DNA of 64,000 nt from Riemerella columbipharyngis (GTDB lineage Bacteria > Bacteroidota > Bacteroidia > Flavobacteriales > Weeksellaceae), in the NCBI RefSeq assembly GCF_900101995.1, contig NZ_FNAS01000005.1, forward strand, positions 1 to 64,000, written 5' to 3'. The notes beneath the pieces are model-generated. The model had not been told where the DNA came from. It was given only the letters and a program-made list of their open reading frames with translations, and ran no database searches. The position numbers were made by a program, and so were the translations under genes. Of the stretch, positions 2,683 to 60,108 are shown piece by piece; position 1 is the first letter of the stretch, and each line of letters starts with the position of its first letter.

Positions 2683-3927
2683 GTGGGATTTATCTACAAC
2701 ATAGTCGTACGCTTACTGATTTTAGGAATGAAAATCGGGCGTTTCTTTAATGCCAAAATAAAGAAAGGCTGGGAAGGGCGGCAGCAATCCGAAAGTATTT
2801 TGCAAAAAGCATTCAGCCCAAAGGATAAAGTGATATGGATGCACGCCGCAAGTCTCGGAGAATACGAACAAGGGCTTCCCGTTCTGGAAAAACTAAAAGA
2901 ACAATATCCGGCACATAAAATCTTGGTAACTTTCTTTTCGCCTTCGGGATATGAGAATATTGCCAAAAAGGAACATATTGCAAATGCCGTTTGTTACTTG
3001 CCTTTTGATGATGATAAAAGCCTTGATGCCTTTCTGTCGTATTTTAGCCCTGAGCTTTTTTTGACGGTAAAGTATGACTATTGGTATCATTTATTTGAAA
3101 AGCTTAGAGCACAAAGGGTTCCTATTTTCGTGATATCAGCATTGTTTTACAAGAAACAAGTTTTTTTTAAGCCTTACGGTAAATGGTTTGTGCGACAGCT
3201 AAAGAAAAATGTTTGTTGTTTTTTTCATCAGACCGAAGAGTCTTGCACCCTTGCAAAATCTATCGGGATAGCACAATCTCACATCAGTGGAGACACTCGC
3301 TTTGACCGCGTAAAAACCATTAGAAATAGGAATAATGAAGTGCCTTATATCACCGCTTTCAAGGAAGAAAAAAAGCTTGTTGTTTTCGGGAGTTCATGGA
3401 ATAGTGAAGAGGCTGTTGCGGAGATGGCAGCTTCTTGTTCTGAGGCTAAAATCATCATTGCCCCTCACGATTTGAAACGCATACCAATACTTAAAACCAT
3501 ATTTCCTAATGCTTTATTGTACAGCGGTGTTAACGACGAAAAAGAATTAGCAAGTAGCAATGTTTTGATTATAGACTGCATTGGGATTTTGTCAAAGCTC
3601 TATGCCTATGCAGACATTGCCGTCGTGGGTGGGGGATTTCATTCTTTGGGGTTGCATAATATTTTAGAAGCTGCTACATTTGGAATTCCTGTAGTTTTTG
3701 GGAACCACTATAAGAAAAATCCAGAAGCCGACACCCTTATCAAAAATAATGGAGGAAAGGCTTTTGCCAAAGAAAATGATGCCACACAATTTGTCTTAAA
3801 ACTAATCGAAGATAAAGCACTTAGGGATTCTATGGGGACTAATGCGAAAAACTTTATAAATTCTCAAGCAAATGCCACCGAAAAAGTTGTTTCTTTTATA
3901 ATAAATAATGCTCATAAATGCCGTTAA
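2683..3927 (+). CDS. waaA: 3-deoxy-D-manno-octulosonic acid (Kdo) transferase
   Basis: WaaA adds Kdo from CMP-Kdo to lipid IVA at the inner face of the cytoplasmic membrane. The 414 residues begin with a hydrophobic anchor, then KKGWEGRQ (27-34) and HAASLGEYEQ (54-63), which contains the conserved catalytic Glu60. The C-terminal half has the GT-B donor site with VVGGGFHSLGLHNILEAA and VFGNHYKKNPEA. The start is GTG at 2683; no ATG in this frame would keep the anchor. The last 32 bases overlap the converging UbiA-type gene. Confidence 0.93.
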   Translation: MGFIYNIVVRLLILGMKIGRFFNAKIKKGWEGRQQSESILQKAFSPKDKVIWMHAASLGEYEQGLPVLEKLKEQYPAHKILVTFFSPSGYENIAKKEHIANAVCYLPFDDDKSLDAFLSYFSPELFLTVKYDYWYHLFEKLRAQRVPIFVISALFYKKQVFFKPYGKWFVRQLKKNVCCFFHQTEESCTLAKSIGIAQSHISGDTRFDRVKTIRNRNNEVPYITAFKEEKKLVVFGSSWNSEEAVAEMAASCSEAKIIIAPHDLKRIPILKTIFPNALLYSGVNDEKELASSNVLIIDCIGILSKLYAYADIAVVGGGFHSLGLHNILEAATFGIPVVFGNHYKKNPEADTLIKNNGGKAFAKENDATQFVLKLIEDKALRDSMGTNAKNFINSQANATEKVVSFIINNAHKCR

Positions 3928-8689: not shown

Positions 8690-10627
8690 TTATTTAATGA
8701 TTTTTTGAGAGAATTTTTCTCCATTTTCTGAAACAGCCGTAACAACATAAACATTATTCAAAACAGGGATACTAAATATAAAATCAGAAGAAGTTGCTAC
8801 ATTCTTAGCCTCTTTCACTATTTTACCACTCAAATCATAAATCTGAACATTTGCTTTATTCCAATTTTTACTAAATATTAAGCGATAAGATTCAAGACCT
8901 TTATCATAAACTACTTTACATTGGTCATTTTTAGCAAACTCTTCTGTAGCCAATGTTCCAATGTTCGGTTGACCGTAGTAGACATTAAAAAATTTCTCCC
9001 CCACTGGTAATTCTGCACCATTATTTATTTTTACTAAATCACTATCCGAACCTTTCGTTTCTCTAATATAGAAGCTTTCTCCGTTAGGAAGCTGGCCAGC
9101 ACCATCCTCTAAAAATTGAGAATTGTATTTGATTTCAAACTTAAAGTATTTTACATCGTCTTTTACCCCTAATAGAACTCTTTTTCCTTTAAAATCTTTC
9201 TCGTTAGCTTCATTAATATAAAGCCATCCGTATTTTTCATATGCATTTTTATCCCATCCACCTTTTCTTTTTTCTTCATAAAATCCAATTGCATTTTGGG
9301 TAGAAGCTTGAGCTTGTGCAGTAGCTACATCTCCGTTAGGCATACCTGTTATCGCATTTTCATAAACTGCATAATATGCTCTACCTATTTCTTTCTTTTG
9401 CTCATCTAATGCAATAACAGCCAACTGCTTAACAACTTCCGATGGGGTAGAAAGCTGTTTAAATCTAGTTTCAGACACTCTCGCTCTTCTGCCCGAAGAA
9501 GATGGACCGCTTGCAGCAGAATATTGATTATTCTGCGGGGTATAAGAAAACACTCTTAATGTACTCAAATCAAGAGTTCCTGTCTGCCCATCTTTCATTT
9601 TGATAAGAAAAGACTGCATAGGCTTAATTATAATAGCTTCATCTCCCACCGGAGCACCAGTACCTGTAAAAGTAATATACTTATATCCTCCATAGTGAAC
9701 CCCCTTAGTATCGTAAGTAAAGTCATTTAAAGAAATTCTTATCCCTCTTATTTTATCTCGTAAAGTTTGAGGAATCATACTCAAGTCCAAATTCACAAAG
9801 AAAGGGTTAGATATTTGATAAAGGTTTTTACCGTAATCACCACTCCAAACATTTCCATCTGTTGCTGCAAAGTGGTCTCTAACATAGGTGGAATACTTCT
9901 CCTTATAAATATTTCTATTAGACCCCCTATCACCAAAGTTTATACCAGCTCCTGCCCCACTCAAATTAACTGTAACATCACTCTTAGAAAATGGCACTCC
10001 TGAGATTTCATGCTCATTGGTAAAAGTCACATTACCATTTTGATTAGCCAAAGAATAATAAGCATATCTATACCCAGTTCCAACATCGTTGGTTGTTTTA
10101 GTTACATCCACATTATCAGCTCTGACAAGAGTATTATTAGTTACCGTAATATTATTTTTTTTCCATCTTTGATTATCGAACGGAACAGTTCTCCCAAATT
10201 CTGTAGTTAGCTCATTTATTAATTTACGTTCAAAAGGCAATGCGATATCTTGGAAAGCACCCTCCCTATCTACTTTAAATTTTTTGGTTATCTTTCCTAC
10301 CACATTGGCTTGTGTTTCCTCTTCTATCCAAAGTTGCCCATATCTCTCTCCTCCTTTATTAGTAGCAGGATTGTAATATAATATAAAGTTTTTGGATTCG
10401 TTAGTAGTATTTAAGCTATTATCAAAAGGACCAACAACTTTAAAATTTCCATAATTATCTACCTTCCCAAGGGATTTAAACGCTTTTCCAGAGTTTCTAT
10501 TTTCTGTATAAACAAGCGAACCTTCTGTTGTAGTCACAACTGCTCCATTACCAACAAAAAATGTAGACTGAGCAAAAATAGCGGTAGAACCTAAAATTGT
10601 TATCACTAAGATTAAACTTTTTTTCAT
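8690..10627 (-). CDS. Type IX secretion cargo protein with C-terminal sorting domain
   Basis: A 645-residue secreted protein. The N-terminal signal peptide ends in TAIFAQ (residues 15-20); the body is beta-rich with no enzyme motif I recognise; the last 70 residues are a type A T9SS sorting domain (VQIYDLSGKIVKEA, then ...NNVYVVTAVSENGEKFSQKIIK split over strands). It should cross the outer membrane through the T9SS whose core genes gldKLMN lie 25 kb away. I start at the ATG at 10627; an upstream TTG at 10648 would add seven Lys/Asn-rich residues before the signal peptide. A clear promoter lies upstream. Confidence 0.85.
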   Translation of the reverse strand: MKKSLILVITILGSTAIFAQSTFFVGNGAVVTTTEGSLVYTENRNSGKAFKSLGKVDNYGNFKVVGPFDNSLNTTNESKNFILYYNPATNKGGERYGQLWIEEETQANVVGKITKKFKVDREGAFQDIALPFERKLINELTTEFGRTVPFDNQRWKKNNITVTNNTLVRADNVDVTKTTNDVGTGYRYAYYSLANQNGNVTFTNEHEISGVPFSKSDVTVNLSGAGAGINFGDRGSNRNIYKEKYSTYVRDHFAATDGNVWSGDYGKNLYQISNPFFVNLDLSMIPQTLRDKIRGIRISLNDFTYDTKGVHYGGYKYITFTGTGAPVGDEAIIIKPMQSFLIKMKDGQTGTLDLSTLRVFSYTPQNNQYSAASGPSSSGRRARVSETRFKQLSTPSEVVKQLAVIALDEQKKEIGRAYYAVYENAITGMPNGDVATAQAQASTQNAIGFYEEKRKGGWDKNAYEKYGWLYINEANEKDFKGKRVLLGVKDDVKYFKFEIKYNSQFLEDGAGQLPNGESFYIRETKGSDSDLVKINNGAELPVGEKFFNVYYGQPNIGTLATEEFAKNDQCKVVYDKGLESYRLIFSKNWNKANVQIYDLSGKIVKEAKNVATSSDFIFSIPVLNNVYVVTAVSENGEKFSQKIIK

Positions 10628-48128: not shown

Positions 48129-48131
48129 AAA

Positions 48132-48437
48132 CCACAACAGGGACTATAAGCCGGATTCTGTACTTTGCGAACAAAGTGCTTGTTATTTATCTACGCCTAC
48201 CATTGCTGAAAGGCTTTAGCTGCCTACCCCTCGGCATTGGACGAGCCGCCCTTAGTTGCCGATATACTTGGCATTACACCGCATAGAGTTTACCTGATTT
48301 CACTACAGCCGAACTGTACTTGCTTTCTGTTGCACTGGTCCTCACATCACTGTGGACGGCCGTTAGCCGCTATGCTGCCCTATGGTGTCCGGACTTTCCT
48401 CTCTGCTAAGCAAAGCAACAAGCCGTCTCTGTTGTGG
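48132..48437 (-). ncRNA. rnpB: RNase P RNA
   Basis: The minus strand carries the two hallmarks of bacterial RNase P RNA: GAGGAAAGTCCGGAC at 48401-48387 near the 5' end and ACAGAATCCGGCTTAT at 48161-48146 near the 3' end, 306 bases in all. The ends pair as helix P1 (CCACAAC with GTTGTGG), followed by a U5 run that ends transcription. It is the catalytic RNA for tRNA 5' processing. The -7 box at 48442-48449 puts the start right at the 5' end. Confidence 0.96.
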
Positions 48438-55141: not shown

Positions 55142-57172
55142 TCATTTGAATAATTGGAAAACAAAAAACGAAGCAATATAGGCTAAACCCGTCATCCCTA
55201 AGAGCTGTATCAGCGTCCATCTGATGCTCTTGGTTTCTTTGTACACTACGGCAATCGTAGAGATACACTGCATAGCAAAAGCATAATATATCAGTAGAGA
55301 AGCACCTGAAGCTAATGTAAAGACTTTGCTGCCATCAGGATATTGGTCTTTTTTCATTCTATCAATGATTTTTTCTTCCGGAGCTTCGTCATTCAAACTG
55401 TAAAGCGTGGACATCGTTCCCACAAAAACTTCTCTCGCCGCAAAACTGGTAATGATGCTTACTCCCATTTTCCAATTGTATCCCAAAGGTTTTATTATAG
55501 GTTCCATTCCTCTACCCATTTTAGCGAGGTAAGAGTTTTCTAATTCTACATTGGAAGCTACCATTTCATTCTTTTGTGGGCTTGGTCCGAAGTAGCTCAA
55601 TACCCAAATAATGATACTCACGGCAAAGATTATTTTTCCGGCTCCTGTGATGAAAGCCCATACTTTTTTTAGGGTCATTTTTAGGTCATAGCCCCAAAGC
55701 GGCATTTTATAGGTGGGTAAATCCATTACCAAGAATGATTTTTCCTTAGTTTTAATGATGGTCTTTAATAATAAAGAACTTAGAAGTACCATTACAAAGC
55801 CCAATAAATACATTATTAAAAGGGTAATCGCCTGTAAACTTATCCCAAAGTACTTTTGACTGGGGATAACGAGAGAAATAATAATACTGTAGATAGGAAG
55901 CCTTGCGGAGCAGGTCATAAAAGGAGTTACAATGATGGTAATAAGCCGCTCCTTCATATTCTCTATATTTCGGGCTGCCATAATCGCAGGAATGGCACAC
56001 GCCGTACCCGAGACTAATGGAACTATACTTTTGCCATTCAGCCCAAAGGGTCTTAGAAACCTGTCCATCAAAAATATGACTCTTGCCATATACCCCGAAT
56101 CTTCCAAAAGGTATAAAAAATAGAGCAAAATTCCAATTTGAGGAGCAAAGACAACCACACCTCCTACCCCCGGCAATATCCCGTCTGCCACCAAACTGCT
56201 GAGAGGACCATCCGGCAGGTTTTCTTTGGTAATGCCGGCAAGCCAGTCAAAGAGGCTTTCTATCCAATCCATAGGGTATTGGGCTAATGTGAATACACTC
56301 TGGAAGATGACAAGCAGTAGTAATAAAAAGATAATATATCCCCAAAATTTGTGCACCAATATTCGGTCTAATTTCTCGGTAAGCAGCTCTTTGAAATTAG
56401 CTTTTTTTACGATAACTCTTTTGATGATTTTATCAATGTCTTGATACCGCCTGATGGTCTCTTGCACTTGCATTCGTTTTTGCGAGGTGTGTTTAAGAGC
56501 ATCGGATAAGTCTTTGGCATCTATCAATTTATGATTGGAGCATAGAGCTACCCAGTTTCTATAGAGGTTGGGCTCGCTGGAAGCAGCGGATAGTTTTTCT
56601 ATAATTCCCCTTTGCTCCATAGGAATATCAAAGGAAATCGTTTCTTTTTTGGAAAAGAGATTATCGTAGATGCCTTGCCTCAAGTTCTCCACTCCGATGC
56701 CTTTTTTGGCGTTGGTGGTATAGACTTTCACGCCTAATTCTTTTTCTATAGTTTCAATGTTTAGGCTGATGCCTCTTTTCTCGGTTTGGTCTATTTGGTT
56801 GATGACCAATACCATCGGTATTCCTAAATCTTGAATCTGCTGCAGCATCAACAAGCCTCTTTTGATACTGAGAGCTTCTATGGTGTAAACCACTCCGCAA
56901 TAGTTCTTCTCCTCCTGAATGAGATAATCACTGAACACAGCCTCGTCTTCCGAAGACGGATAGATGCTATACGCTCCCGGCAGGTCTATCACTTCTACCT
57001 CCTCGTCTCGGTAGGTATAGTTACCGGCAAGACTGGCTACTGTAACCCCCGCATAGTTCCCCGTCTTTTGATTGGTATGGCAGAGGGTGTTGAACAATGT
57101 AGATTTACCCACATTAGGATTACCTACTAAAAGAATTCTTTTTTTTATTTTGGCTTGCATTTTTGTATTCAT
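55142..57172 (-). CDS. feoB: Ferrous iron transporter FeoB
   Basis: A 676-residue protein: an N-terminal GTPase domain (P-loop GNPNVGKSTLFN at about 18-29, switch region GNYAGVTVA, NQID at about 124-127) and a C-terminal membrane domain of about eight helices with the Gate motifs (SGTACAIPAIMAAR and FAAREVFVGTM). It imports Fe2+. The ATG at 57172 is 5 bases after feoA; an ATG at 57160 is also possible. Confidence 0.96.
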   Translation of the reverse strand: MNTKMQAKIKKRILLVGNPNVGKSTLFNTLCHTNQKTGNYAGVTVASLAGNYTYRDEEVEVIDLPGAYSIYPSSEDEAVFSDYLIQEEKNYCGVVYTIEALSIKRGLLMLQQIQDLGIPMVLVINQIDQTEKRGISLNIETIEKELGVKVYTTNAKKGIGVENLRQGIYDNLFSKKETISFDIPMEQRGIIEKLSAASSEPNLYRNWVALCSNHKLIDAKDLSDALKHTSQKRMQVQETIRRYQDIDKIIKRVIVKKANFKELLTEKLDRILVHKFWGYIIFLLLLLVIFQSVFTLAQYPMDWIESLFDWLAGITKENLPDGPLSSLVADGILPGVGGVVVFAPQIGILLYFLYLLEDSGYMARVIFLMDRFLRPFGLNGKSIVPLVSGTACAIPAIMAARNIENMKERLITIIVTPFMTCSARLPIYSIIISLVIPSQKYFGISLQAITLLIMYLLGFVMVLLSSLLLKTIIKTKEKSFLVMDLPTYKMPLWGYDLKMTLKKVWAFITGAGKIIFAVSIIIWVLSYFGPSPQKNEMVASNVELENSYLAKMGRGMEPIIKPLGYNWKMGVSIITSFAAREVFVGTMSTLYSLNDEAPEEKIIDRMKKDQYPDGSKVFTLASGASLLIYYAFAMQCISTIAVVYKETKSIRWTLIQLLGMTGLAYIASFFVFQLFK

Positions 57173-57177
57173 TTTTT

Positions 57178-57432
57178 TTAGAGGGCTTCTACCAGAATAT
57201 ACCGTGCTTCTTCTTCGCGTAGAGCTACCCTGCTTTTTTCAACCCCAAATTCTATATATAGAGGTCCGCCAAAAGGTGCCTGATACAGAACTTCAAAAAC
57301 AGTATCCGGGATAAGCCCCATTTCTATAATCTTCCCGGGCATTTCCTGCTCGTGGTCATCAGTATAACCAGTGATTTTACCTTTCTTACGATGAGGATAA
57401 TTACAAAGTTTAGATTTAATTTTTGTTTCCAA
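57178..57432 (-). CDS. feoA: Ferrous iron transport protein A
   Basis: An 84-residue SH3-fold FeoA: KKGKITGYTDD, GKIIEMGLIPDTVFEVLY, GGPLYIEFGVEKSRVALREEEARYI. FeoA partners the FeoB GTPase. I choose a TTG start at 57432 because it lies just downstream of the promoter box at 57448-57455; a longer frame to an ATG at 57513 would run through the promoter and give an atypical, longer protein. Operon with feoB and the Cys-rich partner. Confidence 0.82.
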   Translation of the reverse strand: METKIKSKLCNYPHRKKGKITGYTDDHEQEMPGKIIEMGLIPDTVFEVLYQAPFGGPLYIEFGVEKSRVALREEEARYILVEAL

Positions 57433-57447
57433 CTTGCTTTTTACCTG

Positions 57448-57477
57448 CAAAGATAAGTTTATTTGAAACAAATCAAA
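57448..57477 (-). promoter_or_regulatory. Promoter of the feo operon
   Basis: TTTG (57477-57474), an 18-base spacer and TATCTTTG (57455-57448) on the minus strand fit the Bacteroidota promoter. It decides the TTG start of feoA. Confidence 0.65.
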
Positions 57478-57716
57478 ATACCGAAAATGGTTTTTATAAA
57501 TTTTCATCATCACCCCGCTACTGACAGTTCTAAATTCAAATCAACTAAAGCATTCAAAATTAAACATTTTCTTTACCACAATCAGCACCCTATAAGAAAC
57601 CTTACCAGAGTACCGCCCAAAATCAAGCATATGTACTTATAATCGTATGTAACTAAAGCTGTATTATGGGGTACAACTTGTCTGCAAAATATAATGACTA
57701 TGAAGAGTAAATTCAC

Positions 57717-57724
57717 TATGTTTG
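57717..57724 (+). promoter_or_regulatory. Candidate -7 box of the decayed barrel gene
   Basis: TATGTTTG on the plus strand, 40 bases upstream of the ATG at 57765. From 57514 to here the spacer holds no gene that I can see. Confidence 0.45.
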
Positions 57725-57764
57725 TACTTTAGTTGAAATTTTATTTAAATAAAGACCAATTTAT

Positions 57765-58298
57765 ATGAAAAAAATTACACTAATAATTTGTATGATTTGT
57801 GCCGGTATTTGCTTTGCTCAAGTACATATTGGGAAATTTTCTAATCCTGATTCTAAATGGACTTACGGAGGATATGCCGGTGTAGGAGGTGTTTTGGGGA
57901 ACAATTCTGAAACCTCTATATACATAGCACCAAGAGTAGGATATCTTGTCGATTCAAACTTAGAGGCAGGACTTAGCGGAAGTCTCAATTGGTTTAGCTC
58001 TAAGTACTACAATGCTTCTACACTCGGAGTTGGCCCTTATGCCAATTAGTATATCGGCAGAAATTTCTTTATCAATGGATTGTTCCAAGAATATTTCATT
58101 AACTATAAGAACAAAAGCAACGATGCAAAAACGAACTATAACGAACCTGCATTATACTTCGGAGCCGGCTATATGCAGCGTATAGGAAATAAAGCTTACA
58201 TTCAAATAGGCGGCATGTACAATGTTTTATACAACAAAGACAAAAACCATTTGGGAGGTGCTTTCGTTCCTAATATCGGGATTGTATTCGGAATCTAA
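57765..58298 (+). pseudogene. Outer-membrane beta-barrel protein gene with one in-frame amber stop
   Basis: One continuous 178-codon frame encodes a small barrel protein: a signal peptide (1-19, ICFAQ), strands such as WTYGGYAGVGGVLG, SIYIAPRVGYLVDSNLEAGLSG and, in the second part, LYFGAGYMQRIGNKAYIQIGGMYNVLY with a C-terminal GIVFGI. A TAG at 58047-58049 interrupts it, after GPYAN and before YIGRNFFING, at a point where the pattern continues without a shift. It is therefore most simply a single nonsense change, and the gene is probably inactive; sequencing error or stop read-through are alternatives. Confidence 0.75.
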
Positions 58299-58315
58299 TC
58301 CTGAATCTTACTAAT

Positions 58316-58917
58316 ATGAATTTAAACAAAATCGTCCAGCCTTTTATTGAAATTTTTCCAGGTGATTTTTCCTTGAATCCAATCCAAAGACAGACGCCTA
58401 AAGTTTTATTATGCAGATTATTTTTGGCAAAAACACGACGAAATGCTTTGCTCAAAGTTTGGATTTGACAAACTTTACGCCGAAGATGCCGATTTTTTCA
58501 TACATTGGCAGGATATGATGGGAATCTAAGCATAGACTATACAATATTTTTAATTGCCTTGAAAAAGGCTTTCTGGATAAGGATTGGCAGGAAATGAACT
58601 ATAAAGTACTTACAGATGAAGATTTTCAAATACTGAGAACTTGGTATGAAAACTACAATACACGATTGAATAAAAATATCATCTCGGCACAAGAATCTTT
58701 GGCATTAATGCAACAATCCAATCCTAAGTTTATCCTCAGAAATTATATGCTCTATGAGAGCATCAACGAACTAAATGAAGACAAAACAGAAATACTAGAT
58801 AAACTTATCACGGCATTAGAAACCCCTTATATAGAAATCTATCCCGAGTTTTCCACAAAAAGACCCCGGAGGTATGACAATACAACCGGATGCTCTATGC
58901 TCTCGTACAGTTCTTAG
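58316..58917 (+). pseudogene. selO: Decayed SelO (protein adenylyltransferase) gene with a large internal deletion
   Basis: The ends are recognisable: MNLNKIVQPFIEIFPGDFS with NPIQRQTPKV at the start matches the SelO N-terminus, and NPKFILRNYMLYESIN plus TGCSMLSYSS at the end match the SelO C-terminus. Between them only about 60 residues survive, in shifting frames (YYADYFWQKHDEMLCSKFG, then IDYTIF). The pseudokinase core with its catalytic residues is gone: some 200 of about 500 residues remain. At least two frameshifts and a premature stop are visible. It lies 18 bases after the decayed barrel gene. Confidence 0.8.
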
Positions 58918-58986
58918 AAATGATTCAATGATTTCATTAATCCTAAAAGAACAGAAACCTCTTTGGCAAATATACTTTTGAAAGGC

Positions 58987-60108
58987 CTACAATGGAACCA
59001 TCTCAGTTACTTCCACATCATAACCTGATATCACAGGCTTTTGGTTTGGTGTTTGCGTAATAATCCTAAATTTTGTAATACCTAAGTTTTTGAGTATCTG
59101 TGTACCTACGCCGTATTCCATATAATTCGCAGAAAGTTTTGGATGAAACTCTTTGCCGTTTTGGAAATCTAAAAACCGTTGTAATTTCAGCATTGTATTT
59201 TCGGCATTAGAAACATTATTGATGAAAACTACAGCCCCTTTTCCCTCGTCATTGATCATCTTAGTAACTTTTTCCAGCAAAAGTTTTTCTCCATTAGCAA
59301 GACGGTTTAGGACATCAAAATATTCGCTGGAGCTCTGTACTCTTACTAGCACAGGCTCATCCTGTTCCCACACTCCTTTAGTCAAGGCAAAATGAATCTG
59401 CTCCGTATGTTTTTCTTGAAAAGCGTGAAAATCAAAATCTCCATATACGGTTTTCACCTTCCTTTCTTCTATTTTGGTAACCAAATCTCCTTTTCTTAGG
59501 CGGTATTCTATCAAGTCTTCTACGGAGATTATTTTCAGCCCGTGTTCTTTGGCCAATTCTTCCAACTGCGGAAGCCTTGCCATAGTGCCGTCTGCGTTCA
59601 TTATTTCACAAATTACTCCACCCTGCTTCAGTCCTGCCATTGTGGTAAGGTCTATGGCGGCTTCGGTGTGCCCAGCTCGTTTCAGTACGCCTCCTTTTTT
59701 TGCTCTTAGCGGGAAGATATGCCCCGGACGCATAAAGTCCGATGGCTTACTGTTTTCATTCATCAGTGCGAGGATTGTTTTGGCTCTGTCTCCAGCAGAT
59801 ATTCCTGTAGAAACGCCATCTCCCAATAAATCTACGGAAACCGTGAATGCGGTCTGTTTGGGGTCGTTACTCCTGGTCACCATAATGTCCAGCCCAAGCT
59901 CGTCGCAGCGTTCTTCCGGCAGCGGCATGCAGATAAGCCCCCTCCCGTATATTGTCATAAAATTAATCATTTCCGGAGTAGCAAGTTCAGCAGCAGCAAG
60001 AAAGTCTCCTTCGTTTTCCCTGTTTTCGTCATCTATTACAATGATGATTTTTCCTTTTTTCAGGTCTTCTAATGCTTCCGGAATAGTATTTAATGTAGTC
60101 TTAGACAT
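58987..60108 (-). CDS. ribB: 3,4-dihydroxy-2-butanone-4-phosphate synthase with degenerate GTP cyclohydrolase II domain
   Basis: A 373-residue RibBA-like protein. The N-terminal RibB domain is intact: DDENRENEGDFLAAAELAT (22-40), FTVSVD, GISAGDRAKT, RPGHIFPLRAKKGG and RAGHTEAAIDL. It converts ribulose-5-phosphate in riboflavin synthesis. The C-terminal half aligns to GTP cyclohydrolase II, but the zinc Cys cluster of active enzymes (CxSECLTGD-CDCG type) is missing: the region reads VRVQSSSEYFDVLNRLANG. The second activity is probably lost, as in other flavobacteria. Own promoter upstream. Confidence 0.9.
   Translation of the reverse strand: MSKTTLNTIPEALEDLKKGKIIIVIDDENRENEGDFLAAAELATPEMINFMTIYGRGLICMPLPEERCDELGLDIMVTRSNDPKQTAFTVSVDLLGDGVSTGISAGDRAKTILALMNENSKPSDFMRPGHIFPLRAKKGGVLKRAGHTEAAIDLTTMAGLKQGGVICEIMNADGTMARLPQLEELAKEHGLKIISVEDLIEYRLRKGDLVTKIEERKVKTVYGDFDFHAFQEKHTEQIHFALTKGVWEQDEPVLVRVQSSSEYFDVLNRLANGEKLLLEKVTKMINDEGKGAVVFINNVSNAENTMLKLQRFLDFQNGKEFHPKLSANYMEYGVGTQILKNLGITKFRIITQTPNQKPVISGYDVEVTEMVPL

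Follow-up and report, generated by a model that had tools for sequence, protein, structure and literature searches.

A 602-bp stretch between a putative outer-membrane barrel gene and ribBA in the genome of Riemerella columbipharyngis raises the question of whether a gene for SelO has been lost there, and if so how, how recently and with what consequence. SelO enzymes transfer AMP onto other proteins. The initial annotation of the window (the whole stretch of 64,000 nucleotides that was analysed) had described the interval 58316-58917 as a selO gene decayed by a large internal deletion, with both ends still recognisable. Our analysis bears this out: the locus is almost certainly, judged from its sequence, a pseudogene of selO (protein adenylyltransferase SelO, PF02696) that lost its central ~0.93 kb in this lineage.

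Results

Searching the whole genome with the intact 510-aa SelO of a genus relative (G005) gave three matches, every one at 58316-58917. SelO residues 1-34 correspond to 58316-58417 (E 5.6e-8, 68% identity), residues 341-378 to 58407-58520 (E 3.5e-6, 47% identity) and residues 345-510 to 58420-58914 (E 2.0e-29, 38% identity, one stop inside). With E-values that apply to a single genome, and with all pieces in collinear order on the same strand within 602 bp, the caveat that the two ends might be coincidental similarity can be dismissed. The alignment to intact selO of close relatives that had been proposed as a check was carried out by tblastn with the SelO proteins of five genus relatives against 57600-59100 and returned the same map of pieces.

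On the plus strand, the N-terminal piece (58316-58417, residues 1-34 of 510) keeps the original start codon. It overlaps the piece with residues 341-378 (58407-58520, found by tblastn and in the whole-genome search), which lies in a frame different from that of the start; the overlap at 58407-58417 is the deletion junction, where about residues 35-340 are missing and the frame changes. A short piece follows at 58523-58567 (about residues 380-394) in a frame unlike those of both neighbours. It is weak alone (21 bits) and was found by tblastn with 3 of 5 queries, but is part of the collinear set, and it marks two further frame breaks close together. The C-terminal piece identified by tblastn (58546-58914, residues 388-510) comprises 123 codons with no stop and ends at a stop codon (58915-58917) that, in the alignment to relatives, coincides with that of intact selO. 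As the annotation had stated, the remaining pieces are frameshifted, occupying three reading frames, and its figure of a central 60 percent lost agrees with a remnant that is net 931 bp (61%) shorter than the selO of each of the five genus relatives, where the gene is full-length and open over 1533 bp.

The claimed loss of the catalytic centre was likewise confirmed: the motifs KGAGATPYSR (122), HGVMNTDN (263) and DYGPF (279) of G005 SelO all fall within the missing part. According to passages in PMC8097203, Asp262 of the DFG motif and Asn253, nine residues before it, coordinate metal and are catalytic in P. syringae SelO, and mutation of DFG abolishes AMPylation. By our own reading, judged by spacing, DYG of G005 SelO would correspond to DFG and the Asn of HGVMNTDN to the P. 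syringae Asn. The region that holds the kinase-like core with these catalytic and metal-binding residues is absent from the remnant, and since the core is missing we infer that the remnant makes no working SelO. Conserved sites are altered in what is left as well: of 56 C-terminal columns that are invariant in the five relatives, 15 have changed, one of them being the Cys of the terminal CSS, which is Tyr here. At its C-terminal end, the protein has the nine residues GCS-T/M-LSCSS in 5/5 relatives and GCSMLSYSS in the remnant, which thus keeps the upstream Cys and has YSS for the invariant CSS; either Cys may correspond to the C-terminal redox residue Cys476 of P. syringae.

The Pfam SelO model scores the locus at 21 bits (E 1.3e-4), below its curated cut-off of 22.8 bits, and the C-terminal piece alone at 20.8 bits; a family-wide run of the model reported no match in this genome. 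Across 59 genomes of the genus, family and order, 31 match the model and 30 pass the cut-off. The one matching genome below it is our own; the 5 other members of the genus are all above it. In a draw from the family, 256 of 296 genomes match SelO, with at least one match in 22 of 33 genera, so absence of SelO is not rare in the family. A search with one SelO protein was extended to 22 genomes, namely our own, 19 of the 39 further ones that had shown no match in the family draw, and two with partial matches. The 19 gave no SelO match at E 0.001, leaving ours as the only one with a remnant among the 20 SelO-less genomes searched; the two partial matches (G082 and G110) come from very fragmented assemblies. 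A whole-word literature search for selO together with pseudogene and genome reduction found no paper.

Discussion

A homologous gene is open in 5/5 genus relatives, and the locus carries disabling lesions in the form of a deletion and frame breaks. Its ends are homologous to and collinear with the SelO/YdiU adenylyltransferases (PF02696), the homology being bounded by the start and stop codons, and the intact SelO of the relatives matches solved SelO/YdiU chains such as 6k20 and 6iii. It differs from the intact proteins in lacking about residues 35-340, in its frame breaks and in the Cys to Tyr exchange near the C-terminus. Bacterial internal-deletion pseudogenes combine a large deletion with additional frame breaks, exchanges at conserved positions and presence as a single copy. 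The selO remnant has all of these traits and nothing unusual beyond them; it is a case of ordinary gene loss, caught partway. In the course of events that we propose, a gene intact in the other five genus genomes would have lost its central ~0.93 kb in this lineage and the kinase-like catalytic core would have gone along with it. The 0.6 kb that remained may have acquired its frame breaks, and lost the conserved C-terminal Cys, together with the deletion or after it. We also considered a simple repeat-to-repeat deletion, as TTTGCCAC occurs exactly twice in the intact selO of G005 (L123), at nt 94 and 1024 of the coding sequence, beside both breakpoints. However, the other four relatives do not have the full repeat and the junction in the remnant is out of frame, so that such a deletion is unsupported and the repeat is a lead only.

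The shortened form of the locus could instead stem from an assembly or sequencing error, with the draft assembly (2,136,954 bases in 41 contigs) having dropped the centre of an intact selO. We regard this as quite improbable: at E 0.001 the rest of the assembly yields nothing for the missing part of selO, further frame breaks and the substitution of an invariant Cys are present besides the deletion, the window contains no N, and some 58 kb separate the locus from each end of its 117,513-base contig. The chance that a dispensable second copy decayed here while a working selO is kept elsewhere is practically negligible, as searches of the whole genome, both with the Pfam model and with the intact SelO protein of G005 at E 0.001, match this locus and no further piece of selO. 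The search for a second copy that the annotation had called for thus came back empty, and a working second copy is refuted for the assembled, 99.94% complete genome. It is also very improbable that the C-terminal reading frame survives as a separate small protein that is translated and maintained by selection despite lacking the core. The 132 open codons (107 aa from an ATG at 58594), the 123 aligned codons without a stop and a third-position bias resembling that of intact genes would suit such a protein, but an open frame and this bias are both expected of a young pseudogene as well. Moreover, the altered invariant columns, among them the Cys of the terminal CSS, and the codon-position counts given below speak against it.

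For the deletion pseudogene, codon positions bear on the age of the loss. They were counted in the C-terminal 123 codons alone, with the shorter pieces left out, and synonymous distances were undefined for every pair of the window and a relative. Where the five relatives agree, the remnant has changed in 22 of 141 first and second positions versus 13 of 26 third positions (rate ratio 0.31). The ratio is 0.45 for both the remnant and intact G002 on the columns of the G002 comparison, and 0.35 for the remnant and 0.40 for intact G005 on those of the G005 comparison. As these ratios are like those of intact genes, we infer that most of the divergence of the remnant arose while selO was still constrained. 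The retained pattern in the C-terminal codons also suggests that the selO pseudogene is probably young relative to the long branch of its lineage; the pattern fits a recent loss and is by itself no demonstration of relaxed selection. A hint of relaxation may lie in second positions changing as often as first ones in the remnant (13/83 and 9/58), whereas second positions change less often in intact G005 (9/92 versus 19/77, p 0.012) and, non-significantly, in intact G002 (11/94 versus 14/72, p 0.19), a comparison that rests on small numbers. Over the C-terminal 123 residues, the remnant is 45-51% identical to the relatives, compared with 52-94% among the intact five. We rejected this faster change as a sign of decay: the lineage also has the longest branch in the unrooted RibBA and FeoB trees, so the low identity needs no decay to explain it.

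In E. coli, passages in PMC12663964 report that SelO AMPylates glutaredoxin, that a SelO knockout survives more poorly with pyocyanin and that RNase Z removes the AMP. RNase Z and 2-oxoglutarate dehydrogenase E1 are each above cut-off in 6/6 genus genomes. For glutaredoxin (PF00462, a short model), no match was found at E 0.001 in 5/6 genus genomes, our own included; 13 of 14 control genomes match the same model. G005 has one marginal match of 21.1 bits, or 23.1 bits with its neighbours, at a cut-off of 22.9. Thus the known glutaredoxin role of SelO may not apply to most of the genus, including genomes with an intact SelO. Five of the six genus genomes have SelO intact, and a glutaredoxin match occurs, marginally, in G005 alone. 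The present case documents SelO being lost within a genus whose other five genomes keep the gene, which adds little beyond annotation. With one genome per species compared, the loss may be a strain-level trait, as the annotation had stated, or one of the whole species. The genome provides a natural selO-minus relative in which to study the role of SelO where glutaredoxin leaves little or no trace.

Immediately upstream of the remnant lies a putative outer-membrane barrel gene (57765-58298, plus strand). The name was given by the initial annotation, and no Pfam family supports it. The annotation had called this gene dead and suspected a decay zone. The gene is indeed interrupted, by one in-frame TAG (58047-58049), so that two apparently broken genes are adjacent. 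However, it is otherwise whole and aligns along its length with G003, G004 and G005 at 38-49% identity, and with G002 at 57% identity over 122 residues; it may be dead, or the TAG may contain a wrong base. Around the two, feoB (55142-57172, minus strand), a FeoA-like gene (57178-57513, minus strand; 28.9 bits, under the model's cut-off), ribBA (58987-60108, minus strand), an OmpA-like gene and tilS are all open. The supposed decay zone comes down to this one pair of neighbours and does not extend to the flanking genes.

Gene order varies so much across the genus that the present site of selO may or may not be the ancestral one. selO has one neighbourhood in G001, G003 and G004, while G002 and G005 each have it in another; the neighbours of ribBA and feoB likewise differ within the genus. 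tblastn with the five SelO proteins against all 37 named ribBA loci (L027-L063) found no SelO there and did find the control locus; 12 of these loci are shorter than 21 kb since their contigs end there, so their flanks are partial. A similar barrel gene lies near feoB in G003, G004 and G005, and on a contig other than that of feoB in G002. In 13 kb around selO of G003 (L121) there are four 292-aa genes (197-1075, 1738-2616, 2752-3630 and 9180-10058), identical at 290-292 of 293 compared positions. The one that was scanned matches a DDE transposase (PF01609, 102 bits), so an insertion sequence appears to have multiplied around selO of G003. Elsewhere in the window, a bacterial class A RNase P RNA (48131-48434, minus strand, 212.8 bits) partly fills a gap of ~870 bases between open reading frames.
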